Source of the DNA: Armatimonadota bacterium
GTDB taxonomy: Bacteria > Armatimonadota > Fimbriimonadia > Fimbriimonadales > Fimbriimonadaceae
Assembly (NCBI GenBank): GCA_016125185.1
Contig: WGMG01000006.1
Coordinates: forward strand, 930,001 to 994,000
DNA: 64,000 nucleotides
Direction of reading: 5' to 3'
Shown: positions 3,074-51,368 of the stretch, piece after piece
Numbering within the stretch: the stretch's first letter is position 1
Layout: every line of letters starts with the position of its first letter
The notes under the pieces: model-generated
Database searches by the model: none
What the model was told of the DNA's origin: nothing
Seen by the model: the letters and a program-made list of their open reading frames with translations, nothing else
Translations under genes and position numbers: made by a program

Positions 3074-3459
3074 TGCCGCGCGATACCGAAGGTTCGATGC
3101 AGAACGTCGTGAGTGTCGTCCTACGCGGGGGCGTCGCCGCCGCCGCCCTGGTGGGTGGAATCGGCTGGATCGGTTTCCTAGCCGCCCATGGCCACGACCC
3201 CGAATCCTTTTCGAAATTCAGCCCTTCGCCCGAGCGTTACCGCGCTGTCGGCGAAATCCTCGGCGGAGCCTCGCACTTCGATTTCTTGTCGATCATGCTC
3301 GTCGGCGTTCTGCTCCTCGTCCTCACCCCCGTCCTGCGCGTCGCCGTTTCCCTGATCGGCTTCGTCAAGGAAAAGGACCGCCTTTACGTCCTCATCACGT
3401 CGATCGTGCTCACGACCCTGCTCGCCAGCCTTATCGGCGGCATGCTCCGCTACCAGTAA
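3073..3459 (+). CDS. DUF1634 membrane protein, partner of the TauE-like transporter
   Basis: 128-residue protein with three hydrophobic segments (about residues 15-33, 67-90 and 105-122), matching DUF1634. I chose the GTG at 3073 because GGGAGG lies about eight bases upstream and the codon overlaps the stop of the TauE gene by one base; an ATG at 3097 is a possible alternative. DUF1634 proteins are commonly encoded beside TauE/SafE transporters, and an accessory role in the same transport complex is inferred. The 3' end overlaps the convergent DinB gene by ten bases. Confidence 0.8.
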   Translation: MPRDTEGSMQNVVSVVLRGGVAAAALVGGIGWIGFLAAHGHDPESFSKFSPSPERYRAVGEILGGASHFDFLSIMLVGVLLLVLTPVLRVAVSLIGFVKEKDRLYVLITSIVLTTLLASLIGGMLRYQ

Positions 3460-13673: not shown

Positions 13674-13782
13674 ATGCAATCGGTCGGGGAGAATGGTGGT
13701 ACATTCTCTTTCGATGTGTCTACGAGGTTAGCTGCCGGGTTAGAGCCGAAAGTTACTCTTCCTGTGTGGATTAACCCCTAAG

Positions 13783-13831
13783 TTAGGTGGTTCCCCCGCT
13801 CCGGTGTGATCACCGGACTCGACTTACCTAA
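13783..13831 (+). promoter_or_regulatory. Nested dyad before the DUF389 gene
   Basis: Outer arms TTAGGT (13783-13788) and ACCTAA (13826-13831) enclose a perfect hairpin TCCGGTG-TGAT-CACCGGA (13800-13817). TAAATT at 13829-13834 sits seven bases before the ATG at 13842, which suits a -10 box of a leaderless transcript. In that case the dyad is an operator over the promoter rather than a leader RNA. Both readings remain open. Confidence 0.5.
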
Positions 13832-13841
13832 ATTATACCCT

Positions 13842-15104
13842 ATGGACGCCTCCCCCATCCAAAGTGAAATCCTTCAGGCTCCCGAACCTGGTGGTCTTAG
13901 CAAGCATCAAGCCCAAATCCGGCGAACGATCGCGACCGGGGCGATGCTCAGTTCCCCGTACTTGATCATGAACGCGCTGGCCACCGTCGTGGCTGCCTAC
14001 GGTTTGCTCGCCAACAGCACGGCCGTGGTGATCGGCGCGATGATCATTGCGATGCTATTGGGGCCGATCATGGGTCTGGCCTTGGCCCTGGTGGATGGCG
14101 ACACGCTTCTGCTCAAAAACGCGGTCATTGCCGAGGTCGTCGGCGTCGGAATGGTTCTGATCCTGGGTTACGTTATTGGGCATATCCACGGCGACCTTCC
14201 TATTACCGAAGAAATCCTCGCGCGCACGAAGCCGAACTTGCTCGATCTCGCTGTCGCTCTGGCTGGAGGAGCTGCGGGTGCCTATGCGACCGTCTCGCCA
14301 CGCGTGAGCGTCGGCCTAGTCGGCGTGGCGATTTCCACCGCCCTCGTGCCGCCCCTCGCCGTCTGCGGAATCTGCGTCTCGCGCAGCCTGTACGACCTCG
14401 CTGCCGGTGCCTTCATCCTCTTTCTCACCAACCTCGTCGCCATCCAGGTTGCGTCATCGGTCGTGCTGTTCGCCTTCGGATACCACAAAGTCACGCATCG
14501 TGACCCCGGCGACACCGGCTTTGTCCGCCGCCTGGTAATCGATGCAGCCTTATTCCTGGGTCTGTCCGTATTCCTTTACGTGCAGTTGGGCAGTACGGTT
14601 CGGGAACAGCGATTCGAGGAAGACGTCAAGATTCAGCTTGAACGCGGCTTGGTGTCCATCCCGGGCGCATACCTCGCCGAAACCCGGTTCCGAACCATCG
14701 ACAAAAAGTCGGTAGTGGTCGCGCTCGTGCGCGCGCCAAACTCGATCACGCCCGAGCAGACCAAGATTTTGCAGGACCTACTGCCAACGGTTGCTGGCCG
14801 TCCGACCGAACTCCACGTTCGATCTCAGCTCACCAAGGAAACGACGGTCGAAGGCTATCTCCATGTGATCGAACCGAAGGCAACGCCGATCGAGGACGTC
14901 CAATCCACCGCAAGCGACACGACGACTGAGATCACTCCGCTCGTGCCCGACTCCCACGTGCCCCAAACGGACACCAATGCGGCCAACGACGCGAACAACG
15001 AGCCTCCGAGCGACAGCAACAACGAGCCGCCCGCGGACGCCAATAACGCGCTCGGAACCGATTCGAACAACGCGGAAGCTGGAGACGGAGCGTCGCCGGA
15101 GTGA
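13842..15104 (+). CDS. DUF389 (TIGR00341-type) membrane protein with Asn/Pro-rich tail
   Basis: 420 residues. The membrane core contains the DUF389 signature: a first helix TGAMLSSPYLIMNALATVVAAYGLL, then STAVVIGAMIIAMLLGPIMGLALALV, and YATVSPRVSVGLVGVAISTALVPPLAVCG. About seven hydrophobic helices are visible. A soluble domain follows (about 265-360, FEEDVKIQLERGLVSIPGAYLAETRF). The last 50 residues are a low-complexity acidic stretch with NNEPP and D-x-N-N units. I chose ATG 13842; a GTG 36 bases upstream lies in the dyad. The TGA overlaps the GTG of the NhaP gene by four bases. Function of DUF389 is unknown; a link to ion transport is inferred from the neighbour. Confidence 0.85.
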   Translation: MDASPIQSEILQAPEPGGLSKHQAQIRRTIATGAMLSSPYLIMNALATVVAAYGLLANSTAVVIGAMIIAMLLGPIMGLALALVDGDTLLLKNAVIAEVVGVGMVLILGYVIGHIHGDLPITEEILARTKPNLLDLAVALAGGAAGAYATVSPRVSVGLVGVAISTALVPPLAVCGICVSRSLYDLAAGAFILFLTNLVAIQVASSVVLFAFGYHKVTHRDPGDTGFVRRLVIDAALFLGLSVFLYVQLGSTVREQRFEEDVKIQLERGLVSIPGAYLAETRFRTIDKKSVVVALVRAPNSITPEQTKILQDLLPTVAGRPTELHVRSQLTKETTVEGYLHVIEPKATPIEDVQSTASDTTTEITPLVPDSHVPQTDTNAANDANNEPPSDSNNEPPADANNALGTDSNNAEAGDGASPE

Positions 15105-16919: not shown

Positions 16920-17130
16920 TTGAACATAAGTCATGAAGAATAACTACGCTACTCCACGGGGGGAGTCGCTGAGCGAAGCGAAGCGGTGGGGAGGAGGCAG
17001 ACGACCAAACGGTGCAAATCTAGTCTCTGGAATATTGACTCCCTTACCCAGCAAATAAATATGAGATAGGGAGTTGGCACGGATGAGCTTCTCTGGGCGT
17101 AGCTGAGCGATGCCCATCCGTGTCTTAAGC
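16920..17130 (+). repeat. Dispersed two-hairpin noncoding repeat, copy A
   Basis: A block of about 210 bases, also seen at 20883-21110. It begins TTGAACATAAGTC, then 28 bases from its start comes GCTACTCC followed by GGGGGGAGTCG. Hairpin 1 is CGCT-GAGCGAAGCGA-AGCG (16967-16985), then GGTGGGGAGGAG-CAG-ACCAA. A less conserved middle follows. Hairpin 2 has arms CACGGATG (17078-17085) and CATCCGTG (17115-17122). No reading frame. It fills most of the gap 16846-17155 between convergent genes. The stems differ from copy B but remain complementary. Confidence 0.7.
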
Positions 17131-17155
17131 AGTCAATCCAGTTGTAAGGTAACCA

Positions 17156-20100
17156 CTAATTCCCGATCTTGCTCTTGTCCGGATTCGGCGGTCGGTGGAG
17201 AATCGGCCGCTGGTACTTAGCCAGCGCCTTATTGATCTCCTCGATCGCCTTTTCTAGCTGAGCATCTTTTCCTTGCCGCCACAGGTATGGATCGAGTTCG
17301 ACGTCGAAATCAGGATCGACGCCGTGACCTTCCACGTCCCAACGATTCTCCGCCACGTTGTAGAATGCGCAGTTCGGCGAGTTGATCTCGCCCCCATCGA
17401 CGGTGGGGAAGCCAAACGCCGCGACAAGGCCGCCCCAGGTGCGTTTGCCAACCAAGGGACCGATCTTCTTATGCTTGAACAGCCACGGGAACATGTCGCC
17501 GCCCGAGCCAGAGAACTGGTTGGCGAGCATGACCTTGGGGCCGTAGATCGTCGATCCTGGCGTCGGCCAGTCCTTGCCGTCTCGGGGTGTGAATGCGCCG
17601 TCCAACTCTTTCGCCATCTCATAGACCAGGTAGTCGGCGATGAGTCCACCGTGGTTGAACCGCTCGTCCACGACGATTCCGTCCTTGTCCGATTGAGCGT
17701 AGTAGTAGCGGATGAACGAGGTCCAACCGCCGCTGCCCGTATCCGGCACGTGGACGTAACCAGCCCGGCCCTTGGTCATCTTCTCAACGTATCGCCGGTT
17801 GTCTTCTTCCCAGGCTCGGCTTCGGAGCGCGAATTCGCTTGCCACCGGGACAACCGTCACCTCGCGCGATCCATCCCCGTTCGGGTTGGGCCCGATCTTG
17901 ACCTTCACTTGCTTTCCGGCCTTGCCCTCCAGCATTTCGTAGATGTCGTTCGAATCCTGCAGATCCTTGCCATCGATGGCCAGCACATATTCACCCGCCT
18001 TTGCGTTGACGCCCGGCTGGGCCAGCGGCGCATATAGGCCCGGGTTCCATCGCTCGCCGTCGTAGACGCGTTTGATGCGGTACTTGCCGTCTTCAAACAC
18101 AAAGTCGGCGCCCAAGAGGCCGCCGGGGGTGCCAGAAACGCCAGGAATGTCACCGCCGCGGGCCCACATATGGCCGATGGAGATTTCGCCGAGCATATCT
18201 GTGAACAGGTAGTTCAAGTCGGCTCTCGAAGCCACGTTTTCAACGAACGGAGCATAGCGCGCTCGCATCTGCTCCGCGTTGATTCCATGCAGGTTCGCCG
18301 CATAAAACAGGATCGGCTCGTTCGTCCATATCTCATTGAAGATCGATTTCCATTCAGCCTTCGGATCGATTTTCACTTTCATGTCGTCGAGGTCCAAGGT
18401 TCCTGCGCCAGGCTGCATCGGAGCTGCCGTGCTGACGATTGATGCGCCGCCGAGCCCCATGACCAGTGCTTTCGAACCGTCTGGGGTCGTTGTCATCGTT
18501 CGACCTGACCCAAATGGGGTTGCCTTGCGGTCCGCAAACGACCACTTGGTGATCGTAGAGATCGGACTTCCTGCCTGTGGATTCACATGCGGCGGCGTGG
18601 CCAAGGCAAAGAACGAACCGGCCGGTCCTGGTTCTAAGCCTTGGTACTCCATCGTCGGCATCGGGAGCGAGATGATTCGCCGCTCAATGTTGTCGAGATC
18701 GATGGTGAACTCCGGTTTGGCTGGCTTTTCATCTTTCTTATCCCCGTCGGCGGGTGGCGGGGGAGTCTTCACGACCTCCTCGTCGCTCTCAGGCTGAAGC
18801 GGGTTCGGCAGGTCGTTGCGGAGCACCACGCAGTACATCGAGCTCAGAAGCACTGGGCTGGTCATGCTTGACATGTCCAGCCAACTGGTTCCCGGACCCG
18901 CGTTCGTACTGGCAAAGAAGTACAAATGCTTGCCGTCTCGGTCGAAAATCGGGCTCTTTGCCATGCTGAGGCCGTCTGTAATCTGCGTCTTCTTGCCCGA
19001 ATCGAGACTGAAAACAAACACCGCTTGCATGTGGCTATCGAGGTCTCGCGCCCAGGTGATCCACTTGGAATCGGGCGACCATCGGGCGACCAAATTCACA
19101 TTCGGGTCGGTATATGTCGTCTGGTCGACGAACGTGCTCTTTCCAGATTCGACATCTAGAATCCAGAGCTTGTTGCGGTTGTCGTAATAGGCGATCTTCT
19201 TCGAATCCGGCGACCAGTACGAAGCGCCCGATCCGTAGTAATAAGCCGGCGAATCGCCGAGGTCCACGAGTTTGACCTTTTCCGTTGCCGCATCGTAGAA
19301 CGCCATCTGCTGGTGGCCGCTCTCATCTGAGATGTAGGAAATCGTCTTGCCGTCCGGCGACCAGGCTGGATCTCGGCGATGAACGCCCTGCTTATCGTCA
19401 ATCTGGTGGATGTCGCCCTTGCTCGCCGGAACCGTCATCACCCATCCGCGGGCGGCCAACACCGCCCGCTTGCCACTGGGCGAGATGCTTCCGCCCGTCA
19501 TGTCGCCACGAAGGTCCTTAAATTGAGACCGAACCTCGGGGAAGTCGCCTCGAATGTTGATGTTCAGCCGTGTGGTCTGCTTCGTCTTCAAGTCGAAAAG
19601 GTTCAGCGAGCCGAGCTTTTCGTAGACGATCGCGCCGGGACCGGCCGAGGCGGACTTGATATCGAAGCCCTCGCCCGGAATCTCATCCGTGACGCGTTTG
19701 CTCTTGAGATCGAAACTGCTGAGGCCCACCGGGCCCTTTGGATCGGTCAGGAAGTACACCTTATCGCCAATCCACATCGGCTGGAAGTCGTTCCACCCCT
19801 TGCGCGGAATCTCATACACTTTCGAGTCCGACATTTGGCCGATCCAAATCGAGTATGCCTGGCCGCCTCGGTATCGCTTCCAGGCGTCTTGCCACTTGAA
19901 GCCCGGAACGTAGGCCAGTTGCTTGCCGTCTTCCGAGAACGACGCCATCGTCCCCATCGGGAACGGGAGCATTTGGGGCACGCCGCCGTCCTTCGAGATG
20001 GTGAAAAGCTGAGGAGCATCGGTGTTCGAAAGCATGTTCGAAGCAAAGATGATTGATTTGCCGTCCGGTGTCCAGCCTTGAACTTGCTCGCCGCCTGGAT

Positions 20101-20413
20101 GATAGGTCAGTCGTTTGGGCACTCCGCCCTCGACCGGGACCGTGAAGACGTCGGTGTTGCCGTTGTACTGGCCCGTAAACGCGATGGTCGAGCCATCCGG
20201 CGAGAAGTATGGGTAGGTTTCGATACCTGGAGCGCTCGTAAGCCGTTTGGCGTCGCCGCCAGTTCGTGGCACCGACCACAGGTCGCCCGCAAAGCTGAAC
20301 ACGATGGTTGTCGCATTCATCGTCGGGTGTTGCATCAAGAGTGGGTTGGGTCCCGGGTCAAACGCCGATTGCCGACCTGCCGCCAAAAGGGCGAAGAAGG
20401 GAAGTGGAGTCAT
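17156..20413 (-). CDS. Tricorn-type S41 serine protease, exported
   Basis: 1085 residues in the layout of tricorn proteases. The signal peptide (about 1-17) is followed by a beta-propeller of PD40-like repeats (FSPDGSTIAFTG, WTPDGKSIIFAS, WSPDGKTISYIS, WSPDSKKIAYYD). A second propeller comes next, then an acidic lysine/proline linker near 545-560, a PDZ domain (about 850-920) and an S41 protease core. The histidine of the GHMWARGGD segment, Ser970 in NQFSGSGGDMFPW and Glu1028 in VEGHGVDPD fit the catalytic set. The residue after the serine is Gly971, where archaeal tricorn has an aspartate that sets specificity for basic residues, so cleavage preference may differ. These enzymes degrade oligopeptides. 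Divergent from the ArsR gene. Confidence 0.88.
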   Translation of the reverse strand: MTPLPFFALLAAGRQSAFDPGPNPLLMQHPTMNATTIVFSFAGDLWSVPRTGGDAKRLTSAPGIETYPYFSPDGSTIAFTGQYNGNTDVFTVPVEGGVPKRLTYHPGGEQVQGWTPDGKSIIFASNMLSNTDAPQLFTISKDGGVPQMLPFPMGTMASFSEDGKQLAYVPGFKWQDAWKRYRGGQAYSIWIGQMSDSKVYEIPRKGWNDFQPMWIGDKVYFLTDPKGPVGLSSFDLKSKRVTDEIPGEGFDIKSASAGPGAIVYEKLGSLNLFDLKTKQTTRLNINIRGDFPEVRSQFKDLRGDMTGGSISPSGKRAVLAARGWVMTVPASKGDIHQIDDKQGVHRRDPAWSPDGKTISYISDESGHQQMAFYDAATEKVKLVDLGDSPAYYYGSGASYWSPDSKKIAYYDNRNKLWILDVESGKSTFVDQTTYTDPNVNLVARWSPDSKWITWARDLDSHMQAVFVFSLDSGKKTQITDGLSMAKSPIFDRDGKHLYFFASTNAGPGTSWLDMSSMTSPVLLSSMYCVVLRNDLPNPLQPESDEEVVKTPPPPADGDKKDEKPAKPEFTIDLDNIERRIISLPMPTMEYQGLEPGPAGSFFALATPPHVNPQAGSPISTITKWSFADRKATPFGSGRTMTTTPDGSKALVMGLGGASIVSTAAPMQPGAGTLDLDDMKVKIDPKAEWKSIFNEIWTNEPILFYAANLHGINAEQMRARYAPFVENVASRADLNYLFTDMLGEISIGHMWARGGDIPGVSGTPGGLLGADFVFEDGKYRIKRVYDGERWNPGLYAPLAQPGVNAKAGEYVLAIDGKDLQDSNDIYEMLEGKAGKQVKVKIGPNPNGDGSREVTVVPVASEFALRSRAWEEDNRRYVEKMTKGRAGYVHVPDTGSGGWTSFIRYYYAQSDKDGIVVDERFNHGGLIADYLVYEMAKELDGAFTPRDGKDWPTPGSTIYGPKVMLANQFSGSGGDMFPWLFKHKKIGPLVGKRTWGGLVAAFGFPTVDGGEINSPNCAFYNVAENRWDVEGHGVDPDFDVELDPYLWRQGKDAQLEKAIEEINKALAKYQRPILHRPPNPDKSKIGN

Positions 20414-20496
20414 TAAAGCCTTTTTACCCGAGCCCCCTCGGATCGGTTGCGTGGTGAAATATCACTTCTTCGCTCCCTAACGAAACTTAGGAATAC

Positions 20497-20508
20497 AACC
20501 AAGTGGTT
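20497..20508. promoter_or_regulatory. Palindrome AACCA-AG-TGGTT before the ArsR gene
   Basis: A perfect 5-base inverted repeat with a two-base centre in the 112-base region between the protease and ArsR genes, 17 bases before the ATG at 20526. Its place fits autoregulation by the ArsR-type protein, but its short arms could arise by chance. Confidence 0.4.
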
Positions 20509-20525
20509 AAATAAGAATAGGAACA

Positions 20526-20870
20526 ATGGCCACTGATACTCTGAGCACCGTCTTTTCCGCCCTCGCCGACCCGACCCGTCGCTCGATTCTGGAGCAGTTG
20601 ACCCACGGGCCGTTGGCCATGGGCGAAATCGCGAAGAAATTCTCGATCAGCGGTCCGGCGATCACGAAGCACCTGAAGGTCTTGGAGCGAGCGGGACTGA
20701 TCCGTGCGGATAAGCAGGCTCAACTGCGCCCACGAACGCTGGACGCCACCAGATTGAAGGAGGCACAGGAGTATATTGAGTCGTACCGAAAGTTCTGGGA
20801 CGAGAGCTTCGACCGCCTCGACCAGTTCCTCATCGAGCTTCAGGCGCAAGAAAAGAAAAACAACCCATAA
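20526..20870 (+). CDS. ArsR-family transcriptional regulator
   Basis: 114-residue winged-helix protein. The start MATDTLSTVFSALADPTRRSILEQLTHGPLAMGEIAKKF and the recognition-helix region SISGPAITKHLKVLERAGLI are typical of ArsR-type repressors. The C-terminus (YIESYRKFWDESFDRLDQFLIELQ) is the dimer helix of the subgroup often encoded beside SRPBCC/AHSA1 genes, though none is adjacent here. No metal-binding cysteines are present, so it probably does not sense arsenic or other thiophilic metals. The nearest possible targets are itself and the divergent protease gene. GGAACA just before the ATG is a weak ribosome-binding site. Confidence 0.85.
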   Translation: MATDTLSTVFSALADPTRRSILEQLTHGPLAMGEIAKKFSISGPAITKHLKVLERAGLIRADKQAQLRPRTLDATRLKEAQEYIESYRKFWDESFDRLDQFLIELQAQEKKNNP

Positions 20871-20882
20871 CCTCCTGACACA

Positions 20883-21110
20883 TTGAACCTAAGTCTTGTG
20901 GACCAGCTCCGCTACTCCCTGGGGGGAGTCGGCAAGCGAAGCGAGCCGGTGGGGAGGAGACAGCCAACCAAAGAGTCCAAAAAGCTATTCGAAGAACCAT
21001 TGAATCATTTCCGGATACATGCGAGTCAAATGAATGCCAATCAGGGTGCCACGGATAGGCGCAACCGAGTCTTTGTGAACGCCAGTTGAACAGCGCGCCT
21101 ATCCGTGTAA
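20883..21110 (+). repeat. Dispersed two-hairpin noncoding repeat, copy B
   Basis: Second copy of the block at 16920-17130, in the same orientation. TTGAACCTAAGTC stands the same 28 bases before GCTACTCC-CT-GGGGGGAGTCG. Hairpin 1 is CGGC-AAGCGAAGCGA-GCCG (20930-20948), then GGTGGGGAGGAG-A-CAG-CC-A-ACCAA. Hairpin 2 is longer than in copy A: CACGGATAGGCGC (21050-21062) with GCGCCTATCCGTG (21095-21107), 13 perfect pairs. The two copies keep both hairpins while changing stem bases on both sides. It lies just downstream of the ArsR gene. Confidence 0.7.
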
Positions 21111-51156: not shown

Positions 51157-51161
51157 CACAT

Positions 51162-51186
51162 TTTGGTACTCCGGACGGGATTCGAA
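51162..51186 (-). pseudogene. Truncated copy of the tRNA-Glu 3' end (25 bases)
   Basis: Identical over 25 bases to 51290-51314: the T-loop, 3' T-stem, 3' acceptor strand, discriminator and CCA of tRNA-Glu, plus two following bases. Upstream of it (51187-51250) no matching acceptor strand or anticodon arm can be found, so it is not a functional tRNA. It could be an attachment-site remnant from integration at the tRNA or a decayed tandem tRNA gene. Confidence 0.65.
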
Positions 51187-51286: not shown

Positions 51287-51291
51287 CAGTT

Positions 51292-51368
51292 TGGTACTCC
51301 GGACGGGATTCGAACCCGCGATCTTCGCCGTGAGAGGGCGATGTCCTGAACCGCTAGACGACCGGAGC
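51292..51368 (-). tRNA. tRNA-Glu (anticodon CTC)
   Basis: A cloverleaf can be drawn by hand. The acceptor strands are GCTCCGG and CCGGAGT with discriminator A and an encoded CCA. The anticodon stem is TCGCC/GGCGA around the loop CTCTCAC, giving anticodon CTC, and the T-arm is GCGGG-TTCGAAT-CCCGT. The first acceptor pair is G1-U72, a wobble. The intrinsic terminator lies directly downstream. Proteins read through this tRNA on the plus strand are artefacts. Confidence 0.93.

Follow-up and report, generated by a model that had tools for sequence, protein, structure and literature searches.

Two gene-free blocks that flank a gene pair in a member of the Fimbriimonadaceae resemble each other closely, which raises the question of what kind of repeat they represent and whether a transposase moves it. 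The repeats bear on how bacterial repeats without a transposase spread and on how their folds are kept up. The window, that is, the whole stretch of DNA analysed, comprises 64,000 nt of an Armatimonadota bacterium (Fimbriimonadaceae; GCA_016125185.1, contig WGMG01000006.1, positions 930,001 to 994,000). Its two blocks, at 16920-17129 and 20883-21110, agree in sequence and coordinates with the first-pass annotation of this DNA. As described there, both lie outside long reading frames on either side of a tricorn-like and an ArsR-like gene. Over their first 99 nt they are 79% identical without gaps, a match that no other direct repeat of the 64 kb surpasses. The annotation had also reported two hairpins common to both blocks, with stem bases that differ on both sides at once, and had proposed a structured RNA or a REP-like element with its own transposase elsewhere. 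The account that we consider moderately probable is that each block represents an unpaired copy of a triplex-like, non-coding DNA repeat that is dispersed in the genome and has no dedicated transposase (family 1), accompanied beyond copy 2 by a separate REP of the RAYT kind (family 2). The features are as follows:

16920-16940 (+): 5' flank of copy 1, TTGAACATAAGTC.., at the offset that the right end of the pair-joining spacer (TTGAACATAATTCAAGCCTAC) has elsewhere
16941-16996 (+): family-1 repeat, copy 1; cmsearch with model R1, 79.2 bits
16951-16966 (+): stem 1 of copy 1, ACTCC (16951-16955) with GGAGT (16962-16966), C-strand with purine strand; from sequence and covariation
16967-16985 (+): stem 2 of copy 1 (loop-2 hairpin), CGCT (16967-16970) with AGCG (16982-16985), loop GAGCGAAGCGA; from sequence and covariation
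16986-16991 (+): putative third strand of copy 1, GTGGGG, mirror image of GGGGAG
17076-17124 (+): second hairpin of copy 1, CACGGATG..CATCCGTG; fold z -4.3 against shuffles, missed by model R3
17156-20413 (-): tricorn-like open reading frame between the blocks
20526-20870 (+): ArsR-like open reading frame between the blocks
20883-20903 (+): 5' flank of copy 2, TTGAACCTAAGTC.., in a position that matches the flank of copy 1
20904-20959 (+): family-1 repeat, copy 2; cmsearch with model R1, 70.1 bits
20914-20929 (+): stem 1 of copy 2, ACTCCC with GGGAGT; from sequence
20930-20948 (+): stem 2 of copy 2, CGGC with GCCG, loop AAGCGAAGCGA; from sequence, compensatory to copy 1
20949-20954 (+): putative third strand of copy 2, GTGGGG, as in copy 1
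21044-21109 (+): family-2 element, a RAYT-type REP with GGGT tag (21044-21047) and hairpin (21048-21109); R2 89.0 bits and R3 65.8 bits, the hairpin being a member of both training sets

Copies and inverted pairs of family 1

A first pattern search returned a third copy, and blastn placed the repeat at 62 sites in the window's own genome (G000). In a genome-wide search of 85 genomes of the family, 59 copies were found in G000, 51 in the congener G009, four in the congener G002 and one or two in each of three others; the same search found none in the remaining 79 genomes. Applied to retrieved DNA, a covariance model detected 72 copies in G000 and 68 in G009. By its own terms the first-pass annotation would have been refuted by a lack of further copies or by stems that are not kept; the 72 copies in G000 retain their stems. 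Only six of 48 copies fell inside reading frames of at least 150 aa versus 81% of random points, which places the repeat mostly in intergenic DNA.

The copies occur in both orientations and as inverted pairs. Neighbouring copies in G000 form 22 divergent pairs with gaps mostly of 85-99 nt, and none of these pairs joins equal loop classes (shuffled mean 3.4, P 0.014, with classes assigned by simple patterns). The spacers of about 85-99 nt are clearly homologous among most pairs, and their right end, TTGAACATAATTCAAGCCTAC, abuts the unit directly. At this spacer-end offset the window copies carry TTGAACATAAGTCATGAAGAA, and a 21-nt offset to TA(A/G)C-ACGC is common to the window copies and the paired copies at C10:438 and C5:139499. 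Because TTGAACxTAAGTC sits where the right end of the spacer would be, each window copy resembles the right half of an inverted pair standing alone, a reading that would also explain the fixed 28-base distance noticed in the first-pass annotation.

The copies in G000 are concentrated on contigs C3, C5, C10 and C12. Ends of C3, C5 and C10 lie in or near family-1 clusters, suggesting that the repeats break the assembly. A foreign or plasmid origin of these four contigs was rejected, as their tetranucleotide composition is like that of the window and they look like ordinary gene-bearing chromosome. An identity as integron attC sites seems improbable; the copies are dispersed. A sub-threshold match to the Acido-Lenti-1 RNA (30.9 bits, cut-off 37) lies at L038:10304-10348 (+), about 75 nt before a family-1 fragment.

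In G009, 34 units carry a stem-2 loop of 34-39 nt (37-43 counting closing bases) that is nearly unique to each copy between almost identical stems, for example at L191:270-352 and 415-498 and on L174, L189 and L200. These loops resemble one another (mean score -0.40 versus -2.37 +/- 0.21 shuffled), a few of them being clear relatives, and the loop sequences of G009 do not fold. Captured or guide-like spacers are not supported by this residual mutual similarity and lack of a fold. For the same two reasons drift is the simpler explanation, and the simplest reading is that the loops descend by drift from one old common loop, with the structural parts conserved or homogenised meanwhile.

A core of the same design was met far outside the family. 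When one genome per species was scanned for the pattern, it turned up in MAGs of Rickettsiales, Holosporaceae, Pseudomonadales, Bdellovibrionales, Phycisphaerae and an actinomycetote; in this species-wide contig scan a strict pattern gave no matches and a looser one did. The core, GGGGAGTCG-N6-36-CGGTGGGG, was present 2-39 times in each of ten distant genomes, and the reversed control never matched. The loop hairpins differ wholly between these genomes and their complementarity is kept. CTCCC stood within 30 nt upstream in 55 of the 65 distant core matches (background 3.7%), and the length of the C-run tracked that of the G-run in the third strand, runs of 5 usually going with 5 and runs of 6 with 6 (r 0.69, a figure dominated by related genomes); these tests are phylogenetically non-independent and the search pattern itself fixed key bases. 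Isolated matches in Blastococcus and Geodermatophilus look like chance since they lack the C-strand. One match to the pattern came from viral contigs. Among open-access papers, we found no description of the family-1 motif.

Covariation and the putative triplex

The anatomy of the unit was derived from an alignment of 41 distinct units. In alignment columns, A11 C T C C (C17) pairs with G22 G G A25 G T27; next, C28 G N30 T pairs with A N54 C G56, enclosing a variable loop with conserved GA..GA at its edges, and stem 2 is followed by G57 T58 G G G G. The core can be written CTCC(CC)-loop-(GG)GGAG-TCG-[variable hairpin]-CGG(T/A)GGGG. About a dozen copies (C10:10611, C12:32550, C5:87025 and others) hold an extra repeated hairpin, GGAGCCTGCC..GGCAGGATTCATG, inside the loop of stem 1.

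Among the 41 distinct copies, 95.9% of the stem cells were paired (89.1% shuffled) and 34 changes were two-sided versus 7.4 after shuffling. An alignment of 144 distinct rows from several genomes, drawn from 149 hits, gave 94.1% pairing versus 82.5% and 191 two-sided changes versus 55; when slid, it reached at most 52% pairing. In this larger alignment, stem 2 has four pairs with two-sided changes and is 98% paired; its column pair 30-54 occurs as G-C in 84 rows, C-G in 40, A-U in nine and U-A in eight. The covariation that the first-pass annotation saw in this first part of the blocks is real, and for family 1 it supports the proposed selection on the fold. RNA folds of the two window copies were no better than those of shuffled sequences (z about -1).

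Behind stem 2 stands GTGGGG, which mirrors GGGGAG except for a T in place of the A, as in a purine-motif intrastrand triplex. The A of GGGGAG is faced by T in 34 of 41 units and by A in five. Other subfamilies show joint changes of the duplex base and the putative third base (A-T goes with T, G-C with C and a G/A mismatch with A), a pattern that is suggestive only, because the independent changes are few. Counted by the base in the place of the A in GGGGAG, the opposite base is T or A for A, T for T and C for C. The commonest type in G009 has a T in the purine strand, a non-canonical triad, and Watson-Crick alternatives between the C-strand and the G-strand exist.

A motif of this kind has been described in E. 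coli and other Proteobacteria as the intrastrand triplex motif PIT or TM_ECO (Holder et al. 2015, PMC4666352, citing Hoyne and Maher). The E. coli motif, CCCTCNCCC-N3-6-GGGNGAGGG-N3-GGGNGAGGG, forms a triplex in vitro, is intergenic and varies strongly in copy number among relatives; its inverted pairs always join loop type A with type B, and in many copies a G of the C-strand faces A (PMC4666352). Family 1 resembles it in strand order (first the C-strand, then the purine strand, then a G-rich third strand that runs antiparallel), in having T.A-T or A.A-T at the A and a shared G/A mismatch class, in its intergenic sites, inverted pairs of two loop types and very uneven copy number among relatives, and in having no linked mobile element. 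Family 1 has the strand order of the ITxF rules, in which a pyrimidine strand is followed by a purine strand and by an antiparallel third strand of purines, giving G.G-C and T/A.A-T triads. Both loops of 1-6 nt and a triad stem of at least 6 also belong to these rules, and the published searches were limited to loops of 1-6 nt and stems of 6-15 (PMC4666352), whereas in family 1 a hairpin of at least about 20 nt occupies the second loop and the window copies have only 4-5 uninterrupted triads. Longer runs, C5-C6 with G5-G6 in the third strand, occur in distant relatives. Across family 1 the second loop is a variable hairpin of about 18-50 nt instead of 3 nt and the triad stem measures 4-7 instead of 9, around a core GGGGAG-TCG..CGG-TGGGG. 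Because it falls outside the published loop and stem limits, we call family 1 PIT-like and not a member. For the same reason, such repeats with a hairpin in the loop may have been missed widely.

A possible course of events can be outlined from the alignments. The complete form in G000 would be an inverted pair of two units of about 60 nt with different hairpin loops and a conserved spacer. A unit may fold when its strand becomes single, on the lagging-strand template or in a transcription bubble. The C-rich strand would then pair with GGGGAG, the variable hairpin would close the TCG..CG connection, and GTGGGG (or GAGGGG) would lie antiparallel on GGGGAG as the third strand. The predicted result is a short intrastrand triplex of the purine-motif type, similar to the E. 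coli PIT/TM, whose second loop contains a hairpin in the present case. Such a repeat could spread by copying during replication or be mobilised in trans by some enzyme, and would not be an RNA gene.

The hairpin beyond copy 2 and the search for transposases

A model of the second hairpin, R2, matched ten places in G000 and 24 in G009. Model R3, built from 18 members with the copy-1 hairpin left out, matched ten places in G000, 34 in G009 and one, weakly, in G002, and recovered only 21048-21109 in the window. In G000, the places at C6:142696(+), 142765(-) and 143425(+) surround the gene C6:142973-143296, and in G009 those at C72:2766(+), 2843(-) and 3688(-) surround a Y1 gene at 3111-3344. The G000 protein is a REP-associated tyrosine transposase (NCBIfam equivalog NF047646, 84.2 bits versus a cut-off of 80) with the HUH motif HVH and YIHQNP, and its nearest solved structure is TnpArep 4er8; the counterpart in G009 is 68% identical and scores 68.3 bits, below the cut-off. 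Family-2 elements start with GGGTGG-CAYG and have a 12-bp stem with strong covariation, a variable loop and a conserved GAGTC near the start of the loop. GGGTGG precedes nearly all relatives, and the window copy has GGGTGC. The copies are dispersed and include ten heterotypic inverted pairs. Family 2 is thus a REP of the RAYT kind, a type of repeat already known to come with a transposase of its own, and covariation supports selection on the fold of the 21048 hairpin family. It shares with RAYT-associated REPs and REPINs of the GTAG superfamily the REPs in both orientations around the RAYT gene, and the dispersed heterotypic pairs, with a 5' GGGTGG that may correspond to the GTAG/GTGG tag, and differs in its long 12-bp stem and variable loop of about 34 nt.

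Since R3 was built without the hairpin of copy 1 and found only 21048-21109, copy 2 carries a RAYT REP 84 nt beyond its family-1 unit. The hairpin of copy 1 at 17076-17124 folds better than shuffled sequences (z -4.3), yet R3 did not find it; an earlier model that scored it had been trained on it. What the two hairpins have in common is limited to the outer 7 bp and some adjacent bases. Of the two shared hairpins in the first-pass annotation, the first therefore stands as a repeat present in both blocks and the second is not confirmed. As one repeat is found in both blocks and a different element in copy 2, we regard the two as separate systems, the hairpin past copy 2 probably belonging to a single-strand, transposase-linked RAYT system with its gene elsewhere in the genome.

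Y1 transposase genes number 13 in G000 and 26 in G009. A profile search of their flanks found no convincing family-1 copy at any of the 13 genes in G000 (best about 10 bits), and a decayed relative may lie near the Y1 gene at C2:499822. In G009 and G002, the listed Y1 genes and family-1 units are kilobases apart or on separate contigs, and a Y1 gene was absent from six of eight distant carriers of the motif, which are incomplete MAGs. The REP-like element with its own transposase, as proposed at first, accordingly holds for the second hairpin of copy 2, with relatives flanking the RAYT genes of G000 and G009, and is not supported for the main repeat. Several other Y1 genes in G000 seem to have their own flanking palindromes (flanks L060, L061, L062, L066 and L068; for example GGTGGGCT..AGCCCACCCTCCCA at L066 and GCGACCCCGGAGGGCGTCGC at L062), so G000 appears to host several separate REP systems.

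Readings of family 1

Family 1 might be an ordinary REP or REPIN, a single-stranded DNA hairpin moved by a RAYT or an IS200-like Y1 transposase that acts in trans or has since been lost. Inverted pairs, few loop classes, intergenic sites and patchy abundance would all fit, as would the Y1 genes of G000 and of G009, the other repeat-rich genome, and the family-2 RAYT common to both. We nevertheless judge this unlikely: no Y1 gene has a convincing family-1 copy in its flanks, six of the eight distant carriers (incomplete MAGs) lack a Y1 gene, and the alignment of 41 units shows no unpaired 5' GTAG/GTGG or CGTC tag (tags as defined in PMC3733652). With neither tag nor RAYT, family 1 differs from RAYT-associated REPs. 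It resembles the CGTC-tagged REPs in having copies without a dedicated transposase and HH-type dimers of different units (PMC3733652), and differs from these in lacking the CGTC tag and in having two stems and a G-rich tail. A composite mobile element of about 210 nt with two hairpins, which could draw on the similar distance (about 80-90 nt) of the second hairpins from both repeats and on a family-2 element 61 nt from the family-1 copy at C5:21312, is very improbable and largely refuted: the independent model R3 rejects the copy-1 hairpin as a member of family 2, most family-2 places have no adjoining family-1 copy, and the stretch between repeat and hairpin is not alike in the two blocks.

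A structured RNA, such as an element transcribed at the 3' end of transcripts to stabilise or attenuate them, would be consistent with the strong covariation, with the G-U pairs allowed in the stems and with divergent upstream positions that look under-represented (4 of 31 classifiable copies versus 21 of 71 gaps). This we hold to be improbable, given the occurrence in both orientations and in inverted pairs, the lack of a match to any Rfam 15 family, and the related E. coli motif, which has neither promoter nor terminator activity (PMC4666352). The near-absence from most congeners also argues against it, since it speaks against a conserved regulatory role. An intrinsic terminator was rejected, there being no T-run after the hairpins. 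Family 1 is best called a probable triplex-type repeat with a hairpin in its second loop. Its proposed fold is precise and cheaply testable; many co-varying copies are available in two related genomes and clean negatives in other congeners, and family 2 provides a RAYT-linked control within the same genome. More tentatively, the family could belong to a previously unrecognised, Y1-independent superfamily of interspersed repeats in several phyla, in which an intrastrand triplex would carry a co-varying hairpin in its second loop and, in some lineages such as G009, this hairpin would hold an almost copy-specific sequence of near-constant length (34-39 nt).

Two further features of the window lie apart from the blocks. 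A c-di-AMP riboswitch (Rfam RF00379, 71 bits) at 13701-13834 (-) is located just before a predicted membrane-protein frame at 13806-15104 (+). A pair of 28-nt repeats, 96% identical, at 51159-51186 and 51287-51314 is located at a tRNA (51295-51368, -) and is a duplicated tRNA 3' end, as from an integration event or a tRNA fragment.
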